From Thiobacillus sp. (lineage in GTDB: Bacteria; Pseudomonadota; Gammaproteobacteria; Burkholderiales; Thiobacillaceae): a stretch of DNA of 35,808 bases. Position 1 is the first letter of the stretch. Each line of letters starts with the position of its first letter. This document shows positions 19,606 to 33,826 of this stretch, piece after piece. The position numbers and the translations under genes were made by a program. Below the pieces are notes generated by a model that did not search any database, was not told where the DNA came from, and was given only the letters and a program-made list of their open reading frames with translations. Location of the stretch: positions 1 through 35,808 of the forward strand of contig JANJWF010000137.1 of NCBI GenBank assembly GCA_024709685.1, in the 5' to 3' direction.

Positions 19606-21330
19606 TTACTTGCTTAGCGCCACCCACACCCCGTCCCATCCCGCCTCCGGCGGCGTCTGCCGGAACGTCGCGACCCGCTCCAGCATGACCTGGCTCGGCT
19701 TGTCGCCCGGCACATTCGCCAGGCATTCGCGGAACGCGGCCTCGGCGGCATCCCACTCCTGCGCGCGGTAGCGCGCGAGGCCTGATTCGTATGCCTGCAT
19801 CGCCTTGCGGGTCGTGTCGTCCAGTTCGTCGACGAGCGTGATCAGTTCGTACACCTTGACCGGCTCCAGCTTGCCGGCGACGCGCAGGCTGTCGATCTCC
19901 CTGAACGCGAATTCGTCGCCCGCAAGCGTGCGCGTGATTTCGCTGGCGAGGATGCGGGTACCGTAGAACTTGTTGGCCTGTTCCAGCCTTGACGCGAGGT
20001 TCACGGTGTCGCCGATGACGGTGTAGCCGCGCGAGGTCTCGGAGCCGATGTTGCCGACGGTGACTTCGCCGCTGGCGATCCCCATGCGCACGTTGACCTC
20101 GGGCAGGCCGTGGCGCATGCCGAAAAGTTCGGGCAGCGCGGCGCGGAAGGCGTCCATCTTCTTCATCTGCTCGAGCGCAGCGATACAGCCGAGCCGCGCA
20201 TGGTCGGCCGGATCGGTGAAGGGCGGCCCCCAGAAAGCCATGACCGAGTCGCCGATGTACTTGTCGACGATGCCCTGATGGTCGCGGATGACCTCGGACA
20301 TCAGCGAAAAATAGCGGTTGAGGAAGCGCACCGTGGCGTCCGGCGTGAGGCCCTCGCACATGCGGGTGAAGCCCTGCAAATCGGAGAAGAACACCGTCAT
20401 CACCTGGCGCTCGCCTCGATCCGCCGGGATACGGTTTTCCAGCAGGCTCTTCACGATGCGCGGGTCGAGATACTGGCCGAAGGTAGCGCGGATGCGCTCC
20501 TTCTCGCGCAACCCGACCACCATGTGGTTGAAGGACGTAGCGAGCGTGGCCAGCTCGTCGTGGGTGCGCACCAGAATTTCGACATCGAGGTCGCCCGCCT
20601 CGACCGCACGGGTGCCCCCCAGCAGGCGCTTGACCGGATCAACCAGCGACCGCGTGACGAGCCCGGCGAAAATGAGGCCAAGTATCGTGGCGATGGCCGT
20701 GACGATCCAGTTCAGCGTGGTCGCGCGCGCCTCCTCCGCCTTGGCCTGCTTGGCAGTGTCCTGAGTCAGCTTGTTGAGCAGGTCGGTGGTCTTCTGGATT
20801 TCGACGTCGATGGCATCCTTCTCACGCAGCAAGGCATCGCGCACGATCTTTTCCGAGCGCGGGGTGCCTTCCTGCGCCTCGATCTGGAACTGCCGGAAGG
20901 TCGCATGAAAATGCTGGCGCGAGGTCTGGATGGCTGGCAGTTCCTTGCTCAGCACCGCAAGGGTGACACGGTCGAGTTCGACGCCCTGTTCCGCTTCCGC
21001 CTCGGCCAGGAATCGCAGCGAGGAATCGACGATCTGGTCGGCGTTGATGCCGCGCATGTCGAAGGCGTTCGACTCCTTCGCAAGAAATTCAGGATCGGGC
21101 TGGGCCACCTCCATGCCCGCCATCACCCGCTCCATGTGTACCATCTGGTCGCGGATCAGGATTTCCACGCTGGCGACCTGCTGCTGCAGCGGCAGGTACC
21201 AGTCGGAGAGCGCGCGCACCTGATTGTTGAGGTGGCGGAAGTTGAGCACCGACAGCCAGGTGACGATCACCATCAGCACCAGCAGCGCCATGGTGATGCT
21301 GAAGATCTTCAGGCTGATGGGCAGTCGCAT
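19606..21330 (-). CDS. Class III adenylate/guanylate cyclase with HAMP domain
   Basis: A 574-residue membrane protein: helix 1 (about 8-28), a helical periplasmic sensor (about 30-200), helix 2 (about 207-228), HAMP (about 229-285), cyclase domain (about 300-480) and a C-terminal TPR-like tail. Catalytic features are intact: metal Asp in FFSDLQGFT, VDKYIGDSVMAFWG with the second metal Asp and the purine-binding Lys, and VNLASRLEQ with the transition-state Asn and Arg. The Lys/Asp-type purine pocket favours ATP, so cAMP is the likelier product. It lies 36 bases upstream of yhiI on the same strand and may be co-transcribed with the exporter. Confidence 0.9.
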   Translation of the reverse strand: MRLPISLKIFSITMALLVLMVIVTWLSVLNFRHLNNQVRALSDWYLPLQQQVASVEILIRDQMVHMERVMAGMEVAQPDPEFLAKESNAFDMRGINADQIVDSSLRFLAEAEAEQGVELDRVTLAVLSKELPAIQTSRQHFHATFRQFQIEAQEGTPRSEKIVRDALLREKDAIDVEIQKTTDLLNKLTQDTAKQAKAEEARATTLNWIVTAIATILGLIFAGLVTRSLVDPVKRLLGGTRAVEAGDLDVEILVRTHDELATLATSFNHMVVGLREKERIRATFGQYLDPRIVKSLLENRIPADRGERQVMTVFFSDLQGFTRMCEGLTPDATVRFLNRYFSLMSEVIRDHQGIVDKYIGDSVMAFWGPPFTDPADHARLGCIAALEQMKKMDAFRAALPELFGMRHGLPEVNVRMGIASGEVTVGNIGSETSRGYTVIGDTVNLASRLEQANKFYGTRILASEITRTLAGDEFAFREIDSLRVAGKLEPVKVYELITLVDELDDTTRKAMQAYESGLARYRAQEWDAAEAAFRECLANVPGDKPSQVMLERVATFRQTPPEAGWDGVWVALSK

Positions 21331-26705: not shown

Positions 26706-26733
26706 GGAACTTTCCTTCTCCAGCTTCGTTTAA
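26706..26733 (+). promoter_or_regulatory. ECF-type promoter of the sigma operon (GGAAC-16-CGTTTAA)
   Basis: GGAAC and CGTTTAA are separated by 16 bases. GGAAC is the common -35 core of ECF sigma factors. The identical pair with identical spacing stands before the porin-sox operon at 28793-28820, and the flanking bases are also alike. This repeated motif beside an ECF gene is strong evidence for autoregulation. Confidence 0.82.
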
Positions 26734-26844: not shown

Positions 26845-27417
26845 ATGAGTAATAGAGAACCATGCTGCAACTGGGAACAGTTGCAGGATCACGAGTGCGT
26901 CGTGCTGTTCCAGGGCGGTGAGCAGGCTGCGTTCGCAGAACTTGTGCGGCGCTACCAGGACCGCATTTTTCGTTTCGTCCTGCGCATGACGGACTGTCGC
27001 GAAGAGGCGCTGGAATTGACTCAAGACACGATGCTCAAGGCTTTTCACGCATTGGCCGATTGGCGGCCGGATGCGACGTTTGCCACCTGGCTCTTTTGCG
27101 TCGCCAACAATGCCACCATGGACCGGTTGCGGCGCAAGAAGGTGGTTAAATACGTGCCGATCGAGGAGCACATGGATTTTCCCGACCCTGCGTCGGGGCC
27201 GGAGGACACGATGCAGTCGGCGCAGCAGTACCGTATCCTCGAGGCGGCGCTGCAGCGGGTTCACGCGGACTACCGCCAGATCCTGCTGCTGCGGGAAGTG
27301 GAAGAAATGACATACGCGGAAATAGGCGACGTCCTGGGCTTGCGCGAAGGCACGGTCAAATCCCGTATCGCGCGGGCAAGGCAGGCCCTGATTGAAATTT
27401 GCAAGGGCAAGGCCTAG
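26845..27417 (+). CDS. ECF RNA polymerase sigma factor
   Basis: About 190 residues with sigma region 2 (FAELVRRYQDRIFRFVLRM and the -10 recognition part around DTMLKAFHALADW) and region 4 (QILLLREVEEMTYAEIGDVL with the helix-turn-helix GLREGTVKSRIARAR). There is no sigma region 1 or 3, as expected for ECF factors. The next gene encodes a zinc-finger anti-sigma factor and the third a CnrX/Spy-like periplasmic sensor, so activity is probably set by an envelope signal. The start is uncertain: ATG at 26845 is chosen, and a TTG at 26806 in the same frame is possible; neither has a strong ribosome site. Confidence 0.92.
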   Translation: MSNREPCCNWEQLQDHECVVLFQGGEQAAFAELVRRYQDRIFRFVLRMTDCREEALELTQDTMLKAFHALADWRPDATFATWLFCVANNATMDRLRRKKVVKYVPIEEHMDFPDPASGPEDTMQSAQQYRILEAALQRVHADYRQILLLREVEEMTYAEIGDVLGLREGTVKSRIARARQALIEICKGKA

Positions 27418-27457
27418 AACAATCCATGGAATCTAGTCAAATCGGAAAGCAGCAATC

Positions 27458-27901
27458 ATGAAAAAACACTGCAAATGGAGCGAGGAGTTGTCCAGCTACC
27501 TCGACGGCGAACTGGGTGCAAGTTCCCGCCTGAAATTCGAGGCGCACCTTGGGAGCTGCTTCAATTGCACGGAGATGCTGGCGCAATTGCGCAACCTCCG
27601 GCACTGTTTCCAGTCCCTGCCTCAGCAGGAAGTGGGCTTCGACCTGGCGCCTGTGATCCTCGCTAATCCGGCGCACAGGGCGCGTCCAGCATGGCGGCCC
27701 TCGTTCAGTTGGTGGCAAATGCTGCCGGTTTCCTTCGCAGCCGCCGCCACGGTTTCACTGGGCGTATTCATGGGAGCCAGCCTGAGCAGCAAGCCCGACA
27801 TCGGGCTGGTTGTCCCGACCCTGGCCGTATTTGAGCCCATGCCGCCATTCGATGTTTGCGTCGCGGTGATGTCAGGGTGCTATCCAAAGGACAATATCTG
27901 A
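27458..27901 (+). CDS. Zinc-finger anti-sigma factor with one membrane helix
   Basis: A 147-residue protein with an N-terminal cytoplasmic zinc-associated anti-sigma motif, H30-x3-C34-x2-C37 (FEAHLGSCFNC), with C5 as a possible further ligand. A single membrane helix follows (about 88-108), then a short periplasmic tail ending in a Cys pair region (FDVCVAVMSGC). It should hold the ECF factor encoded 40 bases upstream at the inner membrane. Its TGA overlaps the ATG of the sensor gene (TGATG), so the two are coupled. The two periplasmic cysteines could sense oxidation or metal; that is inference. Confidence 0.88.
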   Translation: MKKHCKWSEELSSYLDGELGASSRLKFEAHLGSCFNCTEMLAQLRNLRHCFQSLPQQEVGFDLAPVILANPAHRARPAWRPSFSWWQMLPVSFAAAATVSLGVFMGASLSSKPDIGLVVPTLAVFEPMPPFDVCVAVMSGCYPKDNI

Positions 27902-28359
27902 TGAAACGTCATTGGCTTCCTGTGCTGCTGGGGTTTTCCCTGCTTCTCAACATCGGGGTGCTGGGCGCAGTGGGCTACCAGGCCTGGGCCGGCGGCGACA
28001 GTGCTTCGAACGAGCATGACCATCTGGTGAAGCACCTCAAGCTCAGCGAAGAACAGCGCACCCAGTGGCGGAAAAAAGAGGAAATATTCCTGCGGGACAT
28101 GGGCGACTATTGGGCAGAGGTTCGTTTCCACCGCGAGCGCATGATTCGAGAGATCTTCGCGCAGCAACCCGACCCTGCAGCGATCGAGGCCAGCCGCGCG
28201 GCCATCTGCCGCCTCCAGGAAAACCAGCAGCGCCAGGTCATCAAGCAGTTGATGGAAGAAAAGCAGATGCTCACTGCAACCCAGCGCGAGGCATTGGCCG
28301 AGCTCCTGGTTGAGCAGAAACCCGCTGGTTCGCTCGAGGAGCGATTGCACGGCAATTGA
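27901..28359 (+). CDS. Periplasmic metal-sensor-like protein (CnrX/Spy/CpxP type)
   Basis: A 152-residue protein with an N-terminal membrane anchor (about 5-27) and a periplasmic all-helical domain that fits the Metal_resist/Spy/CpxP group: LKLSEEQRTQWRKKEEIFLRDM, followed by two more long helices. A His-rich start of the domain (NEHDHLVKH, H39/H41/H45) could bind metal. Gene order sigma, anti-sigma, sensor recalls the cnrYXH/nccYXH nickel-cobalt systems, though the anti-sigma here is of the zinc-finger type. The start at 27901 overlaps the anti-sigma stop. The ligand is unknown; metal, misfolded protein or sulfur species are all possible. Confidence 0.75.
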   Translation: MKRHWLPVLLGFSLLLNIGVLGAVGYQAWAGGDSASNEHDHLVKHLKLSEEQRTQWRKKEEIFLRDMGDYWAEVRFHRERMIREIFAQQPDPAAIEASRAAICRLQENQQRQVIKQLMEEKQMLTATQREALAELLVEQKPAGSLEERLHGN

Positions 28360-28792
28360 ACCAGAGGAGCGGATTGCCGCGATGGCGGTCTGCTCGCTCC
28401 AGAACATGAACGATGCCGCCACCTCGACCGGTATCCTGGAGCACCATTCACTGACGTGGCGTGCCATGCGCCACCGCACTTGACCGCCCGCGCCCGCCAT
28501 CTCCCTTAGGACAGCCTGCCTATCCGACGGCGGCGGTTTCCATCCGCCGGCTACCTGTTCTGCATCGGCCTGACGATGCAGCCTGCCCTGAGCAACAGGT
28601 TGCCGCGCAACAGATGCCCGTCCGCTTGTAGTAAGAAATAACCAGGCGCCGCATCCAAAAGCAGTCGGCCAAAAACAGCTTGTCCGCATTGCCTCCGGAG
28701 CCAGCATCGGCGCGCGTTACCGGCCATTCAAGCCGCCTGTTTCAACACGCTTGCCGGGGGCACAAATTATTTTCTGGCGCCTGAAAAGAAGC
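28360..28792. other. Non-coding stretch between sensor gene and porin-sox promoter
   Basis: About 430 bases with no supported gene. A 33-codon frame at 28382 has no proper ribosome site or recognisable product. A small inverted repeat GGCGG-TTTCCAT-CCGCC near 28533 is the only structure I see. No T-tract terminator follows the sensor gene. The ECF promoter and a palindromic leader come directly after this stretch. Confidence 0.6.
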
Positions 28793-28820
28793 GGAACATT
28801 TCTTTCTTCCCCTCGTTTAA
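28793..28820 (+). promoter_or_regulatory. ECF-type promoter of the porin-sox operon (GGAAC-16-CGTTTAA)
   Basis: GGAAC (28793-28797), 16 bases, CGTTTAA (28814-28820): the same elements and spacing as upstream of the ECF sigma gene. The spacers are both pyrimidine-rich. The predicted start point is near 28827, about 60 bases before the porin ATG. Confidence 0.82.
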
Positions 28821-28824
28821 GCCA

Positions 28825-28862
28825 GTGAAGGACACGGTGTCTTCACACCAATGTTCCTTCAC
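28825..28862 (+). promoter_or_regulatory. Palindromic leader: one left arm, two possible right arms
   Basis: GTGAAGGACAC (28825-28835) can pair with GTGTCTTCAC (28837-28846, one-base bulge) or, alternatively, with TCCTTCAC (28855-28862). It begins at the predicted start point of the ECF promoter, so it could be an operator or a 5-prime RNA stem with two exclusive folds. Function is inferred. Confidence 0.4.
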
Positions 28863-28887
28863 CCAAGAAATATACGAGGAGAACGGA

Positions 28888-30390
28888 ATGCACATCAAAA
28901 GCAGTCTGGCCGCAGCGCTTGCGCTTGCCGGCCTAACATCCGGCGGGGCAAGCCACGCCACCAACTGGGTGATGGCGTACGGGACCGAGCCCGCCACCAG
29001 CACGCACCGCCTGCAGGGCGCGGTGCAACTCACCTACGAAAACAACTTCGACTGTCGGGACACGCGTGGATTTGTGGGTGGCGCAAAGGCCAACAATGGA
29101 CGGTCGGTGAACAACTGCCGCCAGGGGCCGGAACTGCAGGACGACGAATCCGGCCTTGCGCTGCAGAACCTGATGCTTGGGGTGCGGGGAAACCTGATCC
29201 CAAATCGCATCAACTATCACGTCGCTGCCAACGCCGGCCAGAACGTCGCCAACTACCATCCATACAAGACCGAGCGCGAGCAGCTGGCGAGCCTGGTCAA
29301 CGCGAGCGTGTCCTTCCACTACATCCCCGGCGTGCGGGTGCGCGCGGGCCTGCAGCAGAAGCCCGGCCCCGAGGAGCTCTACCAGGGACTGGAGGCGACC
29401 GACTACATCTTCCTCACCGACTTCGTGCAGCGCGTGCAGATCGAACGCTTCATCGACGGCAACGCCAAGAGCACCAATGCGATCCCCGGACAGGGCTACG
29501 GCTGGCAGGGAACAAAGAATGCCCAGGGCGTCGGCAGCGGCATCGGCCCCATCACCGGCAACATCTCCAGATGGGGGTATGACACGGACGTAGGTCGCGA
29601 CTGGGGGGTGCAATTCTTCGACGCCTTCAAGCGCGACAAGTGGACCCACACCTACTCGGTGATGTTCGGCAACGGCAACGGCATCCATCGTGGCGACAAC
29701 AACAGCGACAAGGACCTCAACCTCTATCTTTCCTCCGAGTACGACCTGCCCGGCGGCAAGGGCCCGCTCAAGCACGGGTTGAAACTGTACGGTTACCACC
29801 AGAAGGGCGTGCGCAATTTCGTCATCGACCCCAGCGGCAGACAGAGCCAGGATTTCGACCGCATCCGCTACGGCATCGGGGCGAAGGCGCTCGGCCACCT
29901 GTTCGGCGAAGATCGCGGCAAGCACCGCCTGGGGTTCGAGCTGATGTTCGCCGACGGCATGATCAACTACACCCCCACCGCCAACACGGCTGACGCCCCC
30001 TTCGGCGGCCTCGTCCAGTTCGCGGCAGAGGAAGGCAACAAGGCGAAGGGCATCACCCTCGACTACGGCTACTACCTCAACAAACGGTGGCAGTTCGACG
30101 TCCGCTACTCGCGCGACGACCTGCTGTACGAGCAGGCCAATGCCAACCCGGCGAAACAATACTGGACCAGCGGCGACGAGCGCATCCTGAAGTACACGAC
30201 GCTGGGCGTGAACTACTACTTCGCGCCCAAGACCCGGCTCACCTTCAACTATGAGTTCCGCAACGTCGAAGCCCCGAACCCGGCGCGCAATACCGACGGC
30301 ACCGTCAATCCCAACTCCACGATCAACGCGAACGTGGTGTCCGGCTCGGTGGGCGACCGCTTCGGCCTGCGGCTGACGCACACCTTCTAG
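28888..30390 (+). CDS. Outer-membrane porin (OprO/OprP-like beta-barrel)
   Basis: A 500-residue protein with a Sec signal peptide (cleavage near GGASHA-TN, residue 23) and alternating aromatic/polar beta strands ending in the outer-membrane signature LRLTHTF. The internal stretch GLQQKPGPEELYQGLEATDY resembles the constriction/insert region of phosphate-selective O/P porins. Two Cys in the first 60 mature residues may form a disulfide. GAGGAG stands before the ATG. It is the first gene after the second ECF promoter and 38 bases before soxX, so it probably provides anion (for example thiosulfate or phosphate-like) entry for the module; the substrate is inference. Confidence 0.82.
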   Translation: MHIKSSLAAALALAGLTSGGASHATNWVMAYGTEPATSTHRLQGAVQLTYENNFDCRDTRGFVGGAKANNGRSVNNCRQGPELQDDESGLALQNLMLGVRGNLIPNRINYHVAANAGQNVANYHPYKTEREQLASLVNASVSFHYIPGVRVRAGLQQKPGPEELYQGLEATDYIFLTDFVQRVQIERFIDGNAKSTNAIPGQGYGWQGTKNAQGVGSGIGPITGNISRWGYDTDVGRDWGVQFFDAFKRDKWTHTYSVMFGNGNGIHRGDNNSDKDLNLYLSSEYDLPGGKGPLKHGLKLYGYHQKGVRNFVIDPSGRQSQDFDRIRYGIGAKALGHLFGEDRGKHRLGFELMFADGMINYTPTANTADAPFGGLVQFAAEEGNKAKGITLDYGYYLNKRWQFDVRYSRDDLLYEQANANPAKQYWTSGDERILKYTTLGVNYYFAPKTRLTFNYEFRNVEAPNPARNTDGTVNPNSTINANVVSGSVGDRFGLRLTHTF

Positions 30391-30428
30391 ATCTGGCTCG
30401 CGACACAACACACAAGAGGAGAACATTC

Positions 30429-30917
30429 ATGCGATCAATTTTTGGAAAAGGCCTGACCGTCGCGCCGCTGCTGCTGGCCGTCGCACTCGCCGGATGCGCG
30501 GCAGAGCCAGGCAAGCCCACCCAGGCGGCGAAGGCGAAGCCCTCGGATTTTTCGGAGTGGCCCTGCATGAGCTACACGCTTGCCTGCGGCAAGATCCCGA
30601 CCCGCAAACCGGTCACGCAGGCGCTCGTCGGCCCGCTCAACGGCGACCCCGTCCGCGGCCAGGCGCTCGCCAACGAGCGCAGCAAGGGCAACTGTGTCGC
30701 CTGCCACCTGCTGAAAGGTGCGGAACAGCCCGGTTCCAAGGGACCGGACCTGACCGCCTACGGCACGTGGGGCAGGAGCGACGCGGAAATCTACGCTCTG
30801 GTCTACGACATGCGCTCGCGCAACCCGGATACCGTCATGCCGCCGGCCGGGGCCAACCAAATCCTGACTGACCAGGAACTGCGCGACGTGATCGCCTTCC
30901 TGCAGTCGTCGAAGTGA
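30429..30917 (+). CDS. soxX: SoxX, monoheme cytochrome c, predicted lipoprotein
   Basis: A 162-residue cytochrome with one heme site CVACH (89-93) and an axial Met M137 in NPDTVMPPAG, followed by LTDQELRDVIAFLQS, the usual SoxX C-terminus. The signal peptide ends in a lipobox LAGC (C23), so the protein may be lipid-anchored rather than soluble. C46 and C53 may form a disulfide. SoxX and SoxA form the heterodimer that oxidatively links thiosulfate or another sulfane compound to the SoxY cysteine. soxA starts 12 bases after its stop. Confidence 0.9.
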   Translation: MRSIFGKGLTVAPLLLAVALAGCAAEPGKPTQAAKAKPSDFSEWPCMSYTLACGKIPTRKPVTQALVGPLNGDPVRGQALANERSKGNCVACHLLKGAEQPGSKGPDLTAYGTWGRSDAEIYALVYDMRSRNPDTVMPPAGANQILTDQELRDVIAFLQSSK

Positions 30918-30928
30918 AGGAGCACAAC

Positions 30929-31855
30929 ATGGCTGGAACTCACCATTTTTCCCTGACCAGGCTTGCGCTCGCGACGCTGTGCGCCGTGGCGGTCAATACG
31001 CAGGCTGCCGACGCCGTCTACCGCGAAGCCTTCCCACGGGTAGCGATCGATCCGTCCCGGGGCGTCGCCGGCGGCGGGGATGCCGATTTCGGCGCCACGC
31101 TGCAGTACTGGCAGGACGACCAGGCGCTCGAGAAGAGCAAGCCATGGATCGGCAACCCCGAACACGAGTGGAAGCTCAACTGGAAATTCATGGACCTCGA
31201 CCACACCGACGACATGCACCCGGGATACCTCGCGCTGGAGCAGGGCGAGAAACTGTTCAAGTTCTGGGCCAAGCGCGAGCCGGCATTCCGCACCTGCCTC
31301 GGCGAAGGCAAGACCGACTTCAAGGGCCTGGCGGCAGGCTATCCCAAGTACGACCCCAAGCTGAAGAAGATCATGACCGTCGAGAGCCGGGTGGAGCACT
31401 GTGCCAAGACCGCGCTGTGGGAGGACTTCAAGCAGGGCTCGCCCGCGAACAACCAGATCTCGCTCTACTTCAAGTCGCTTTCCACCAACATGCCGATCAA
31501 GGTGGATACAAGTTCGACGGAGATCATGGATTCCTACCGACGCGGCGAGAAGCTGTTCTACACCAAGGTCGGGCAATACAACTTCTCCTGCGCGTCCTGC
31601 CACACCACGACCGGTCTGCTCGGCCAGCGCTTCCGCGGGCAGGTGCCGACTTCTCCGTTCGCGGACGCGGCGCACTTCCCGACCTACCGTGTGGGGCTGG
31701 GGGACATCGAGTCGCTACAGCAGCGCTTCATGCGGTGCAACCTGCAGGCCCGCACCAAGGGACTGCCGCCCGGCGACCCGGCCTACACCGACCTGGAAGT
31801 CTTTTACACCGTACTTTCCAACGATTACCCGGTTTCCGTGCCCTCGGCGCGGTGA
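30929..31855 (+). CDS. soxA: SoxA, monoheme form
   Basis: A 308-residue periplasmic cytochrome with a signal peptide (cleavage near TQA-AD, residue 26). The active-site heme is CASCH (221-225), and the axial Cys that becomes a persulfide is C270 in QRFMRCNLQARTKG. The first heme site of diheme SoxA proteins is lost; C123 and C158 remain as a likely disulfide, as in other monoheme SoxA. AAGGAG lies six bases before the ATG at 30929, so the start five codons earlier is rejected. With SoxX it should form SoxXA, catalysing the first step of the Sox pathway. No soxB or soxCD is found in the window. Confidence 0.92.
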   Translation: MAGTHHFSLTRLALATLCAVAVNTQAADAVYREAFPRVAIDPSRGVAGGGDADFGATLQYWQDDQALEKSKPWIGNPEHEWKLNWKFMDLDHTDDMHPGYLALEQGEKLFKFWAKREPAFRTCLGEGKTDFKGLAAGYPKYDPKLKKIMTVESRVEHCAKTALWEDFKQGSPANNQISLYFKSLSTNMPIKVDTSSTEIMDSYRRGEKLFYTKVGQYNFSCASCHTTTGLLGQRFRGQVPTSPFADAAHFPTYRVGLGDIESLQQRFMRCNLQARTKGLPPGDPAYTDLEVFYTVLSNDYPVSVPSAR

Positions 31856-31886
31856 ACCTTTACTGCAACTTCACATGGAGAACGAC

Positions 31887-32366
31887 ATGAATGAACTGAA
31901 TCAACAACGCAGAACCCTGCTGAAGGGTGGATGCGCCGCCGGCATCGTTACCCTCGCTGCAGCCTCGGGGCTGCTCGTACCGGGTCGCGTGCTTGCGGCG
32001 GAATGGAGCAAGAGCGCCTTCGAGGCCAAGAGTGTCGCCGACGCCCTCAAGGGCCTGGGAGCGGCAGATGTCGCCACGAGCAGCGACATTCTGATCAAGG
32101 CCCCCGACATCGCCGAAAACGGCTCGATGGTTCCGGTCGAAGTGACCAGCCAGATCGCCGGCACCCAGTCCATCTCCATCCTGTCGGAGAAGAATCCGCT
32201 GCCGCTCCTGGCAGCGTTTGAATTCACCGACGGCGCACAGGGTTACGTGTCCACCCGCATCAAGATGGGCCAGACCTCCAACGTTCGCGTGGTGGTCAAG
32301 GCCGGCGGCAAATATTACAGCGCGGCCAAGGAAATCAAGGTCACCATCGGCGGCTGCGGCGGCTGA
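31887..32366 (+). CDS. soxY: SoxY sulfur-carrier protein
   Basis: A 159-residue protein with a twin-arginine signal (QQRRTLLKGG, R8-R9; cleavage near VLAA, residue 38) and the C-terminal swinging arm GGCGG, whose C157 carries the sulfur intermediates. SoxY is exported folded together with SoxZ, which has no signal of its own. The start at 31887 has GGAG six bases upstream. Length and motifs are complete, so the carrier should be functional. It sits between soxA (31 bases) and soxZ (32 bases). Confidence 0.96.
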   Translation: MNELNQQRRTLLKGGCAAGIVTLAAASGLLVPGRVLAAEWSKSAFEAKSVADALKGLGAADVATSSDILIKAPDIAENGSMVPVEVTSQIAGTQSISILSEKNPLPLLAAFEFTDGAQGYVSTRIKMGQTSNVRVVVKAGGKYYSAAKEIKVTIGGCGG

Positions 32367-32398
32367 GTGCTCAAATTTAAATCAGAAAGGAATAGAAC

Positions 32399-32713
32399 AT
32401 GGCAGACATGATGAAGATCCGCACCCAGCTCTCCGGCGACGCGCTGGCAATCAAGATCCTGATGGCCCACCCCATGGAGACCGGCCAGCGCAAGGACGCA
32501 AAAACGGGCCAGTTTATCCCCGCCCATTTCATCAAGAACGTCGCCGTCGGCCTCAACGGCAAGACGGTCGTTGCAGCCCAATGGGGCGGCGCGATCTCCA
32601 AGGATCCCTTCCTTGGCCTGAAGGTGAAGGGCGCCAAGGCCGGCGACAAGGTCACGGTGAACTGGGAAGACAACAAGGGCGAAAAAAATAGCGCCGAGGC
32701 GACGGTTGGCTGA
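32399..32713 (+). CDS. soxZ: SoxZ, partner of SoxY
   Basis: A 104-residue immunoglobulin-like protein, of normal length for SoxZ. The conserved start MKIRTQLSGDALAIKILMAHPMETG and the motifs FIPAHFIKNV and GxWGGAISKDPF are present. It forms the SoxYZ heterodimer on which sulfur is carried in the periplasm and travels through the Tat system with SoxY. AAGG lies eight bases before the ATG. A strong hairpin follows the gene. Confidence 0.96.
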   Translation: MADMMKIRTQLSGDALAIKILMAHPMETGQRKDAKTGQFIPAHFIKNVAVGLNGKTVVAAQWGGAISKDPFLGLKVKGAKAGDKVTVNWEDNKGEKNSAEATVG

Positions 32714-32722
32714 CATGGCTTG

Positions 32723-32764
32723 CGGCAGGCCTGACCTCCGCTGCAAGGCGGACCGGCCCTGCCG
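32723..32764 (+). repeat. Intercistronic hairpin after soxZ
   Basis: CGGCAGGCC pairs with GGCCCTGCCG (one bulged base), with an inner stem TCCGC/GCGGA. No T run follows. It may act as a processing or stability element, or partial terminator, separating sox mRNA from the two downstream genes. Confidence 0.5.
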
Positions 32765-32808
32765 TGCAGCGTGGTAAGAATGATCAATTTTGATTCTGGA
32801 GCAGATTT

Positions 32809-33282
32809 ATGAAACAAATTTTCAAGGCAACCCTGGTCGGCTTGGCAGCAAGCCTGGCCATGTCCAGCGCGGCGGCGCTGGACATTGGCACAGACGAGCG
32901 TATGAAGCTCGTACTGCGACCGGACGAACGGCATCTGGTATTGTTCGAGATGCGCAGCTTCCTCCACACCCTGCAGGTCATCTCCGATGCGGCGCTGCGG
33001 GAGGATATGCAAGCGGTGGCGGACGCGGCGCGGAGCATGGGCAGCGGTGCTGCGAACCTGATCCCGCCGCTGACCGTGGCAAAATTGCCGCCGACCTTCC
33101 AGATGCTTGCCGGCACCGTGCATACCACGTTTGACGCGATGGCTCTGGATGCGGAAAGCCTGGGCGACCCGGTGCACACCCAGCGGCAGATGACCCAAAT
33201 GCTGCAGACATGCAACGCCTGCCATGGCATTTACCAGGTGGCAGTCGAGGAGCCCTTCCCGCGCCTGAAGAAGAAGCGTTGA
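32809..33282 (+). CDS. Cytochrome c-prime-like periplasmic cytochrome
   Basis: A 157-residue protein with a Sec signal peptide (cleavage near SAAA-LD, residue 24) and an all-helical body. The heme site CNACH (135-139) lies close to the C-terminus, the layout of class II cytochromes (c-prime/c556). Helix 1 (LVLFEMRSFLHTLQ) holds a Met that could be a sixth ligand as in c556. Cytochromes c-prime bind NO and are often linked to NO tolerance; c556 types are electron carriers. Sequence does not decide between them. GGAG precedes the ATG by eight bases. It is 95 bases after soxZ and on the same strand. Confidence 0.75.
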   Translation: MKQIFKATLVGLAASLAMSSAAALDIGTDERMKLVLRPDERHLVLFEMRSFLHTLQVISDAALREDMQAVADAARSMGSGAANLIPPLTVAKLPPTFQMLAGTVHTTFDAMALDAESLGDPVHTQRQMTQMLQTCNACHGIYQVAVEEPFPRLKKKR

Positions 33283-33289
33283 GCAGGAT

Positions 33290-33312
33290 CGGGCGCCTCT
33301 GAAGAGGCGTCC
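33290..33312 (+). repeat. Hairpin between the cytochrome and the last gene
   Basis: GGGCGCCTC-TGAA-GAGGCGTCCC forms a GC-rich stem with a stable four-base loop and one bulge. No T run follows. It may protect or process the upstream mRNA. Confidence 0.5.
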
Positions 33313-33343
33313 CGAACACAATATTCAACAAGAGGAATAAACC

Positions 33344-33826
33344 ATGAAATCCATCCTACTTTCCCTGTCCGCCGTCATGCTGGCGCTTCCCCTGACGGTG
33401 CAGGCCGCCGCGCAGGACCACCACGACCATGGCACCGCTGCACCCCAGTCCATCGAACTCAATGCAGGCAAAAAATGGGCGACCGACGACGCGCTGCGCC
33501 AGGGCATGAGCGCGATCCGTGCGCTCGCGGACGAGGCGCTGCCTGCCGCACATGCCGGCAAGATCACGCCTGCCGGCTACGATGCGCTGGCGAACGACAT
33601 CAACACGCAAATCTCGTTTATTGTCTCGAGCTGCAAGCTCGACCCCAAGGCCGATGCGCAACTCCATATCATCATCGCCGAGCTGGGCGACGCCATCGAG
33701 ACGATGGAGGGCAAACAAGCCGGGCAATCGCGCGCCATGGGGGTGGTAAAGGTTTCCAATACCCTGAACACCTACGGGAAGTATTTCGACCATAAAGGCT
33801 GGCGCTCGATCAAGCTGCCTCATTGA
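33344..33826 (+). CDS. Conserved periplasmic helical protein with N-terminal His motif (DnrO-like)
   Basis: A 160-residue protein with a Sec signal peptide (cleavage near VQA-AA, residue 20-22). The mature protein starts with QDHHDHG, a possible metal site, and continues LNAGKKWATDDALRQGMSAIRAL, a pattern I recall in proteobacterial hypotheticals sometimes labelled DnrO; the rest is helical. Function is unknown. The ribosome site AGAGGA is clear. It is the last gene of the porin-sox run and converges on rluA. A role in metal binding or cytochrome maturation would be speculation. Confidence 0.65.
   Translation: MKSILLSLSAVMLALPLTVQAAAQDHHDHGTAAPQSIELNAGKKWATDDALRQGMSAIRALADEALPAAHAGKITPAGYDALANDINTQISFIVSSCKLDPKADAQLHIIIAELGDAIETMEGKQAGQSRAMGVVKVSNTLNTYGKYFDHKGWRSIKLPH

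Follow-up and report, generated by a model that had tools for sequence, protein, structure and literature searches.

A candidate autoregulated ECF sigma factor regulon with its own porin and an additional SoxXA–SoxYZ unit in Thiobacillaceae

A block of ten genes encoding an extracytoplasmic function (ECF) sigma factor, an anti-sigma factor, a periplasmic sensor, a porin, SoxX, SoxA, SoxY, SoxZ, a cytochrome c′-like protein and a periplasmic protein with a conserved histidine motif (His-motif protein) lies at positions 26845–33826 of a 35,808-nucleotide stretch of Thiobacillus sp. DNA (GenBank assembly GCA_024709685.1, contig JANJWF010000137.1; here, the window), which is contig C43 of a draft genome of 2.55 Mb in 195 contigs, 79% complete (Table 1). 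Gene content and order, all on the plus strand, had been given by an original prediction made from the sequence alone and have been borne out by profile searches, with eight of the ten proteins above a curated Pfam or NCBIfam family cut-off and all four Sox proteins above NCBIfam equivalog cut-offs; because the same grouping recurs in four other genomes, a chance association of these genes is excluded. The block is interpreted here, at a probability of roughly 70%, as a dedicated autoregulated ECF sigma regulon switching on a second SoxXA–SoxYZ sulfur-conjugation unit, with predicted control by the sigma factor as the firm part of the proposal.

Table 1. Features of the block, with coordinates in the window and the basis of each assignment
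Feature	Coordinates	Strand	Basis and remarks
Predicted ECF promoter 1 (autoregulatory)	26706..26732	+	GGAACTTT-N13-CGTTTA; about 110 bp 5′ of the sigma start codon
ECF sigma factor	26845..27417	+	Sigma70_r2 and r4_2; longest open reading frame starts at TTG 26806, ATG 26845 also found in relatives
zf-HC2 anti-sigma factor	27458..27901	+	Single membrane helix, judged by eye; C-terminal pair of invariant Cys; stop codon overlaps the sensor start
Membrane-anchored periplasmic sensor	ATG 27901..28359	+	Metal_resist PF13801, 80.9 bits; predicted fold closest to NccX/CnrX
Predicted ECF promoter 2, 5′ of the porin–sox operon	28793..28819	+	GGAACATT-N13-CGTTTA
Outer-membrane porin, first gene of the output operon	ATG 28888..30390	+	Porin_O_P (Pfam)
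SoxX, c-type cytochrome	30429..30917	+	TIGR04485, 82.3 against cut-off 61
SoxA	30929..31855	+	TIGR04484, 168.4 against cut-off 110
SoxY	ATG 31887..32366	+	TIGR04488 'true GGCGG', 170.7 against cut-off 125
SoxZ, true type	32399..32713	+	TIGR04490, 134.2 against cut-off 76
Cytochrome c′/b562-like protein	32809..33282	+	PF01322 20.8, under cut-off 26.5; CNACH haem motif visible
His-motif periplasmic four-helix protein	33344..33826	+	No Pfam or NCBIfam family

A common promoter motif, GGAACWTT-N13-CGTTTA, has been identified 5′ of both the sigma gene and the porin gene; these are the only two matches in the window, with none in 100 dinucleotide shuffles. Across 117 Thiobacillaceae genomes the exact motif occurs at 11 sites, nine of them inside the block, all in the five genomes that carry it, and the lack of any match in the 112 genomes without the sigma factor makes chance a poor explanation; a reversed-motif control gave four matches, in four genomes without the block. 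Allowing one mismatch raised the reversed control to six matches in the five block genomes, and exact sites only have therefore been used. One motif at both the sigma and the target operons, kept across carriers save for an imperfect sigma-gene copy in one of them, is the pattern of an autoregulated ECF regulon. On this basis the porin–soxXAYZ set is very probably controlled by the adjacent sigma factor, lending support to the original claim that the ECF module governs its own porin and Sox subset, with the shared motif limited to the block carriers (5/117).

The two exact sites outside the block both belong to the window genome (G000). One (G000:C87:21020-21046, L136) lies 5′ of a gene pair encoding a thioredoxin-fold and a TolC-family protein, the other (G000:C35:17029-17055, L135) 5′ of a 48-residue open reading frame accompanied by an OmpR-like regulator and an EnvZ-like kinase. 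Orthologues of the thioredoxin-fold gene in the other four carriers lack the site, so that it has been rejected as a shared regulon member in favour of a G000-specific one, and the two sites would at best mark lineage-specific members. Also set aside were a one-mismatch site in a relative (G081) upstream of genes for an FNR/CRP-like regulator and a molybdopterin oxidoreductase (named by eye), which does not rise above the background of the reversed control, and a general 5′-untranslated hairpin following the promoters, which clearly beats shuffles in only three of eight sequences.

Residues associated with Sox function are retained in the block, where SoxXA stands with a SoxYZ pair whose SoxY has the GGCGG end, behind a twin-arginine-like leader (by eye). 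SoxA has one CxxCH haem motif, its active-site cysteine (RFMRCNLQAR) and an N-terminal extension, and falls in a divergent clade; SoxX, which has an LAGC lipoprotein signal, is likewise extended at its N-terminus, by a stretch that includes two conserved cysteines. The original prediction had SoxB and SoxCD absent. For SoxB this holds at the locus, since no soxB was found within the block, and fails for the organism: soxB is encoded on contig C102 (883 bits), in the canonical order soxX-soxY-soxZ-soxA-soxB with a second SoxZ, ruling out an organism that possesses soxXAYZ without SoxB. For SoxCD the claim stands as regards soxC, which was above cut-off in none of the five block genomes, provisionally so for the window genome given its completeness; soxD was not searched for. 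A dsrA gene over the curated cut-off is present in all five, and two such copies were observed in the window genome (C134 and C144), as in G061 and G081. Identity between the window set and the canonical copies of the same genome is 33% for SoxX, 27% for SoxA and 63% for both SoxY and SoxZ; judged by sequence, the window soxXAYZ is an extra, divergent, paralogous SoxXA–SoxYZ unit, in a genome that resembles Thiobacillus thioparus, for which a truncated Sox system combined with dsr has been described (PMC5248467).

The original prediction had made the link between trio and sox genes depend on their conservation together in relatives, and within the family they are found together, with the porin, in all five carriers. 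Some SoxA-like match to the window protein (E up to 1e-10) is present in 107 of the 117 family genomes and exceeds 550 bits only in G000, G060, G061, G116 and G081. All ten genes occur in identical order in G060, G061 and G116, and are spread over two contigs in G081, with the break inside soxA. An upstream thiamine pyrophosphate (TPP)-enzyme gene is common to G060, G061 and G081, and the downstream rluA to G081; in G060 and G061 little contig sequence remains 3′ of the block. In G116, which belongs to a different genus, neither gene was found in the 17–19 kb around the block, as if the block may move as a unit.

The five block proteins group together as a single clade (99/98), with a long branch, in a tree built from 45 SoxA sequences; the depth of this clade is unsure because long branches meet among these 45 different rows (a tool warning). 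The haem cysteines and histidine, the active-site cysteine and two further cysteines are retained in 45/45 rows; G081 soxA, which has a stop codon in the stretch and runs into the contig end, was left out of one SoxA alignment. A SoxX lipoprotein signal has been identified in all five block genomes (four by strict lipobox, G081 by eye), and a strict lipobox in 4 of 43 SoxX rows, all four from the block; outside it, SoxX of L068 has a looser LQAC, a possible lipoprotein signal by eye. SoxXA pairs at about 36–47% identity in other family genomes were rejected as instances of the same unit, having no sigma trio, porin or SoxYZ alongside except for SoxYZ in L053 (tblastn searches using all ten proteins of the block, E up to 1e-4; several contigs are short). 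Many Thiobacillaceae (L009-L033 and the larger loci L038-L067) have a SoxXA pair with the active-site cysteine and haem motif kept and no adjacent SoxYZ match, those of L038, L049 and L050 lying close to genes identified by eye as comEC-like or ABC-type. A further SoxA clade comprises seven rows (L053, L068-L072 and L143), with soxXAYZ in L053; the contigs of L069, L070, L071 and L072 stop within soxA or shortly beyond it, as might happen if a repeated copy of soxYZ interrupts the assembly. A plasmid search for SoxA relatives returned 17 records, all below 60% identity.

Signal perception would fall to the sensor and the anti-sigma factor. The original description of the sensor as CnrX/Spy-like stands at the level of the fold, within the limits of a weak model whose scores are given below: Foldseek places NccX and CnrX of Cupriavidus metallidurans first, followed by CpxP, ZraP-type and Spy chains, and by sequence the only match in the PDB is a VirG-like protein (E 0.026). 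CnrX binds its metal through conserved histidine and methionine ligands; for the block sensor no such site is apparent, with no histidine or cysteine invariant among eight sequences. In the anti-sigma factor, the zinc-motif residues C5, H30, C34 and C37 and the C-terminal C134 and C141 are invariant in 9/9 sequences. The latter two would be periplasmic, as they lie C-terminal to the predicted membrane helix, and may be where a thiol, sulfane or soft-metal signal acts. The surface signalling of the original prediction does not fit if taken in the FecIRA sense: the block has no TonB-dependent receptor, its outer-membrane protein being of the Porin_O_P family.

The regulatory trio also occurs outside the family. 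A sensor profile (E up to 1e-9) recovered the sensor from six of 399 Burkholderiales genomes, namely G000, G081 and four non-family genomes (G170, G291, G429 and G492), the order-level searches having sampled about 300–400 genomes from a larger group. Sigma factor, anti-sigma factor and sensor are consecutive in all four (tblastn); the sensor passes the Metal_resist cut-off in each and the anti-sigma factor the zf-HC2 cut-off in three, with G429 at 21.2 against 22.2. No match to SoxX, SoxA, SoxY, SoxZ or the porin (E up to 0.01) was found in the 14–19 kb regions around these trios, and the gene that follows encodes the His-motif protein in G291 and G170 and a DUF6448 protein in G429 and G492. 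The His-motif protein is common, in this way, to the sox output and two non-sox outputs; an HxH, one cysteine and two further histidines are invariant among 11 aligned sequences, and its structure model is a four-helix bundle with a best PDB match at E 0.23. The promoter pair fits GGAACWT-N14-CGTTNA in G429, G291 and G492 and is degenerate in G170. In 76 regions (1.125 Mb, short search loci being omitted as redundant) this looser motif gave 17 matches, 15 at expected promoters and two at the extra G000 genes, against a shuffled mean of 0.1; the pattern was written after these sites had been seen, and its test is the lack of matches elsewhere. Some gene lists were drawn from a simple open reading frame score without a gene finder, and two missed anti-sigma factors were recovered by tblastn. 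These sequence patterns are read here as one regulatory cassette with lineage-dependent outputs, which would have captured a sox module.

Several further observations concern the neighbourhoods of these genes. The DUF6448 gene follows the trio in L192 (G429) and L194 (G492), with nitrate-reductase-like genes upstream in L192 (by eye); no paper on DUF6448 was found by name in an open-access library. A similar membrane-fusion/ABC transporter set stands beside the His-motif protein in L180 and L181 (by eye) or near the trio in L192. Elsewhere in the window (19609-21330, minus strand), a protein with HAMP and adenylate/guanylate cyclase domains lies beside an HlyD/ABC export set.

Relatives of the porin have been found in 32 of 399 Burkholderiales genomes (E up to 1e-10), including G000 and G081, the other 30 at 28–43% identity. 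A sigma-like open reading frame is present in 14 of the 19 distant-porin regions examined. In L104, L111 and L120 a DsrE-like protein is encoded 5′ of the porin (over the DsrE Pfam cut-off in L104 and L111, by likeness in L120), and in L116 an ECF sigma gene is divergent from soxY, soxZ, soxA, a SoxB-like gene, a DsrE-like gene and the porin. The closest distant porin (L103, 43%) has neither a sigma nor a DsrE-like neighbour among the genes inspected. On balance, the neighbours of related porins point to sulfur compounds as the probable cargo. A divergent ECF sigma factor, a DsrE-like protein and a Porin_O_P-type porin (L104, L111, L120 and L116) constitute a recurrent grouping in Burkholderiales. 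A role for the block motif with the ECF factors beside distant porins was rejected: these loci lack it at the expected places, and there were four matches in 838 kb against five in one shuffled set, of which one belongs to the block itself (L122) while three lie away from porin and sigma starts.

In the mechanism proposed, the membrane anti-sigma factor, backed by the periplasmic sensor, would hold the sigma factor at rest until an envelope cue released it, a first guess being a soft metal or reactive sulfur species acting on the two C-terminal cysteines of the anti-sigma factor. The freed sigma factor would transcribe both its own operon and that of the output genes; the porin would admit a sulfur anion, and lipid-anchored SoxX with SoxA would couple that anion to the C-terminal cysteine of the block SoxY. 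SoxB encoded elsewhere would then hydrolyse the sulfonate group and the remaining sulfane would enter the reverse Dsr route, with the cytochrome c′-like and His-motif proteins perhaps handling electrons or metal. Loading of SoxYZ by SoxXA is proposed because of what is known of these families and the residues retained, and completion of the reaction by SoxB and Dsr because both are encoded elsewhere in the genome; that the block SoxXAYZ performs Sox chemistry is accordingly considered likely from its sequence.

One alternative to this regulon is that the genes are mere neighbours, the sigma factor driving only itself and the porin while soxXAYZ is read from another promoter. Gaps of 11–95 bp between output genes could hide further promoters, but the spacing is tight (38 bp from porin to soxX, and 11–32 bp from soxX to soxZ) and the gene order is kept in four relatives, one of them in another genus without the window's flanking genes beside the block, which leaves this explanation improbable. 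For the purpose of the unit, a stress-type rather than a purely nutritional role is close to an even call. Metal or redox stress has been considered in this connection, the sensor registering soft-metal or metal-thiolate stress, the Sox unit quenching periplasmic sulfane and thiol species and the His-motif protein binding metal. The CnrX-like predicted fold of the sensor, the invariant C-terminal cysteine pair of the anti-sigma factor, the invariant HxH, cysteine and two histidines of the His-motif protein together with its position after the trio in two non-sox genomes, and the extra G000 motif sites before the thioredoxin-fold/TolC-family and OmpR/EnvZ-like pairs are all consistent with such a role; the block, however, has no metal-efflux genes and its sensor no invariant histidine or cysteine, and this explanation is held to be plausible at somewhat less than an even chance.

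Substrate induction for lithotrophy would instead have the sensor report thiosulfate, tetrathionate or another sulfur anion, the block supplying a second thiosulfate route with its own porin that feeds the shared SoxB and reverse Dsr. True SoxY and SoxZ with SoxXA in the block, soxB and dsrA in the genome, the DsrE-like and, in one locus, sox neighbours of related porins, and the naming of two of the four relatives as 'scnpilot' metagenome-assembled genomes, a name taken to mean thiocyanate reactors, argue for it, whereas the sensor family is named for metal resistance, the same trio elsewhere precedes non-sox genes, and SoxA of the block clade is missing from 112 of 117 family genomes; some SoxA-like match is present in 107 of the 117. 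This nutritional role is regarded as rather doubtful. Offered just as tentatively is a broader hypothesis in which a transferable ECF/anti-sigma/CnrX-fold cassette, with a stringent promoter code and, in its anti-sigma factor, a thiol switch of two cysteines, exchanges its outputs between lineages, so that in Thiobacillaceae SoxXA–SoxYZ, the porin and lipid-anchored SoxX would form an inducible periplasmic stress system for sulfane or metal-thiolate scavenging, not for energy metabolism.

Several points weigh against the proposed sigma-controlled sulfur-conjugation regulon. The block is rare in the family, and the sigma-gene promoter of G081 differs at the last two motif bases and so falls outside the nine sites counted within the block. 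Both motif patterns were drawn from sites that they recover and fit there by construction, the test being their placement and their absence elsewhere. The AlphaFold model of the sensor, with an N-terminal helix, is weak (predicted local distance difference test, pLDDT, 65.6), and its top Foldseek matches (4clv, 3epv and 2y3h) combine a probability of 1.00 with E 0.017 or worse. Across the eight sensors no histidine or cysteine is invariant. The enzymatic step by the block SoxXAYZ and the sharing of SoxB are both inferred.

Sox systems are usually viewed in terms of energy metabolism, with control by repressors such as SoxR. If a Sox subset is under a dedicated envelope sensor, the same carrier chemistry would be used on demand, providing a testable handle on why sulfur oxidisers retain extra soxXA and soxYZ genes; a strict promoter code would, in addition, make the regulon readable from sequence and further members predictable, such as the thioredoxin-fold/TolC-family and OmpR/EnvZ-like pairs. 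Among known regulatory systems, CnrYXH and NccYXH of C. metallidurans have sensor, anti-sigma factor and ECF sigma factor in one operon, in a gene order that differs from that of the block. The block has the same module layout (ECF sigma factor, membrane anti-sigma factor and anchored periplasmic sensor, probably in one operon from their spacing), and its sensor comes out closest to NccX and CnrX in a weak fold model, but its output is a porin with Sox proteins instead of cation efflux, and sensors of the block type have no invariant histidine or cysteine.

Among sulfur-oxidation systems, the closest are the Kelly–Friedrich Sox system and the truncated soxXYZAB plus dsr of T. thioparus (PMC5248467). 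The present genome is similar in that catalytic residues are retained in SoxXA and SoxYZ, soxB and dsr are both encoded and no soxCD was found; the block, however, adds a second XAYZ set, divergent from the first, whose operon has no soxB. The RpoE4–sorT system of Sinorhizobium meliloti is an ECF26 regulon of two operons that governs sulfite oxidation in response to thiosulfate and taurine, and likewise has its ECF sigma operon just 5′ of the target sulfur-oxidation operon; its output is the sulfite dehydrogenase SorT rather than Sox carriers, and the text available from that source mentions no CnrX-like sensor (PMC3511301). In Arcobacter butzleri, sox genes are activated by an ECF sigma2, with soxCDXYZA and soxB affected together, and a linked CnrX-like sensor or porin is not mentioned in the accessible portion of the report, while here sigma factor, sensor and porin are adjacent to an extra-copy soxXAYZ subset (PMC3445524). 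The original view that the arrangement is undescribed holds in so far as none like it was found in searches of an open-access library, but not for ECF control of sox as such, which is already known (PMC3445524).

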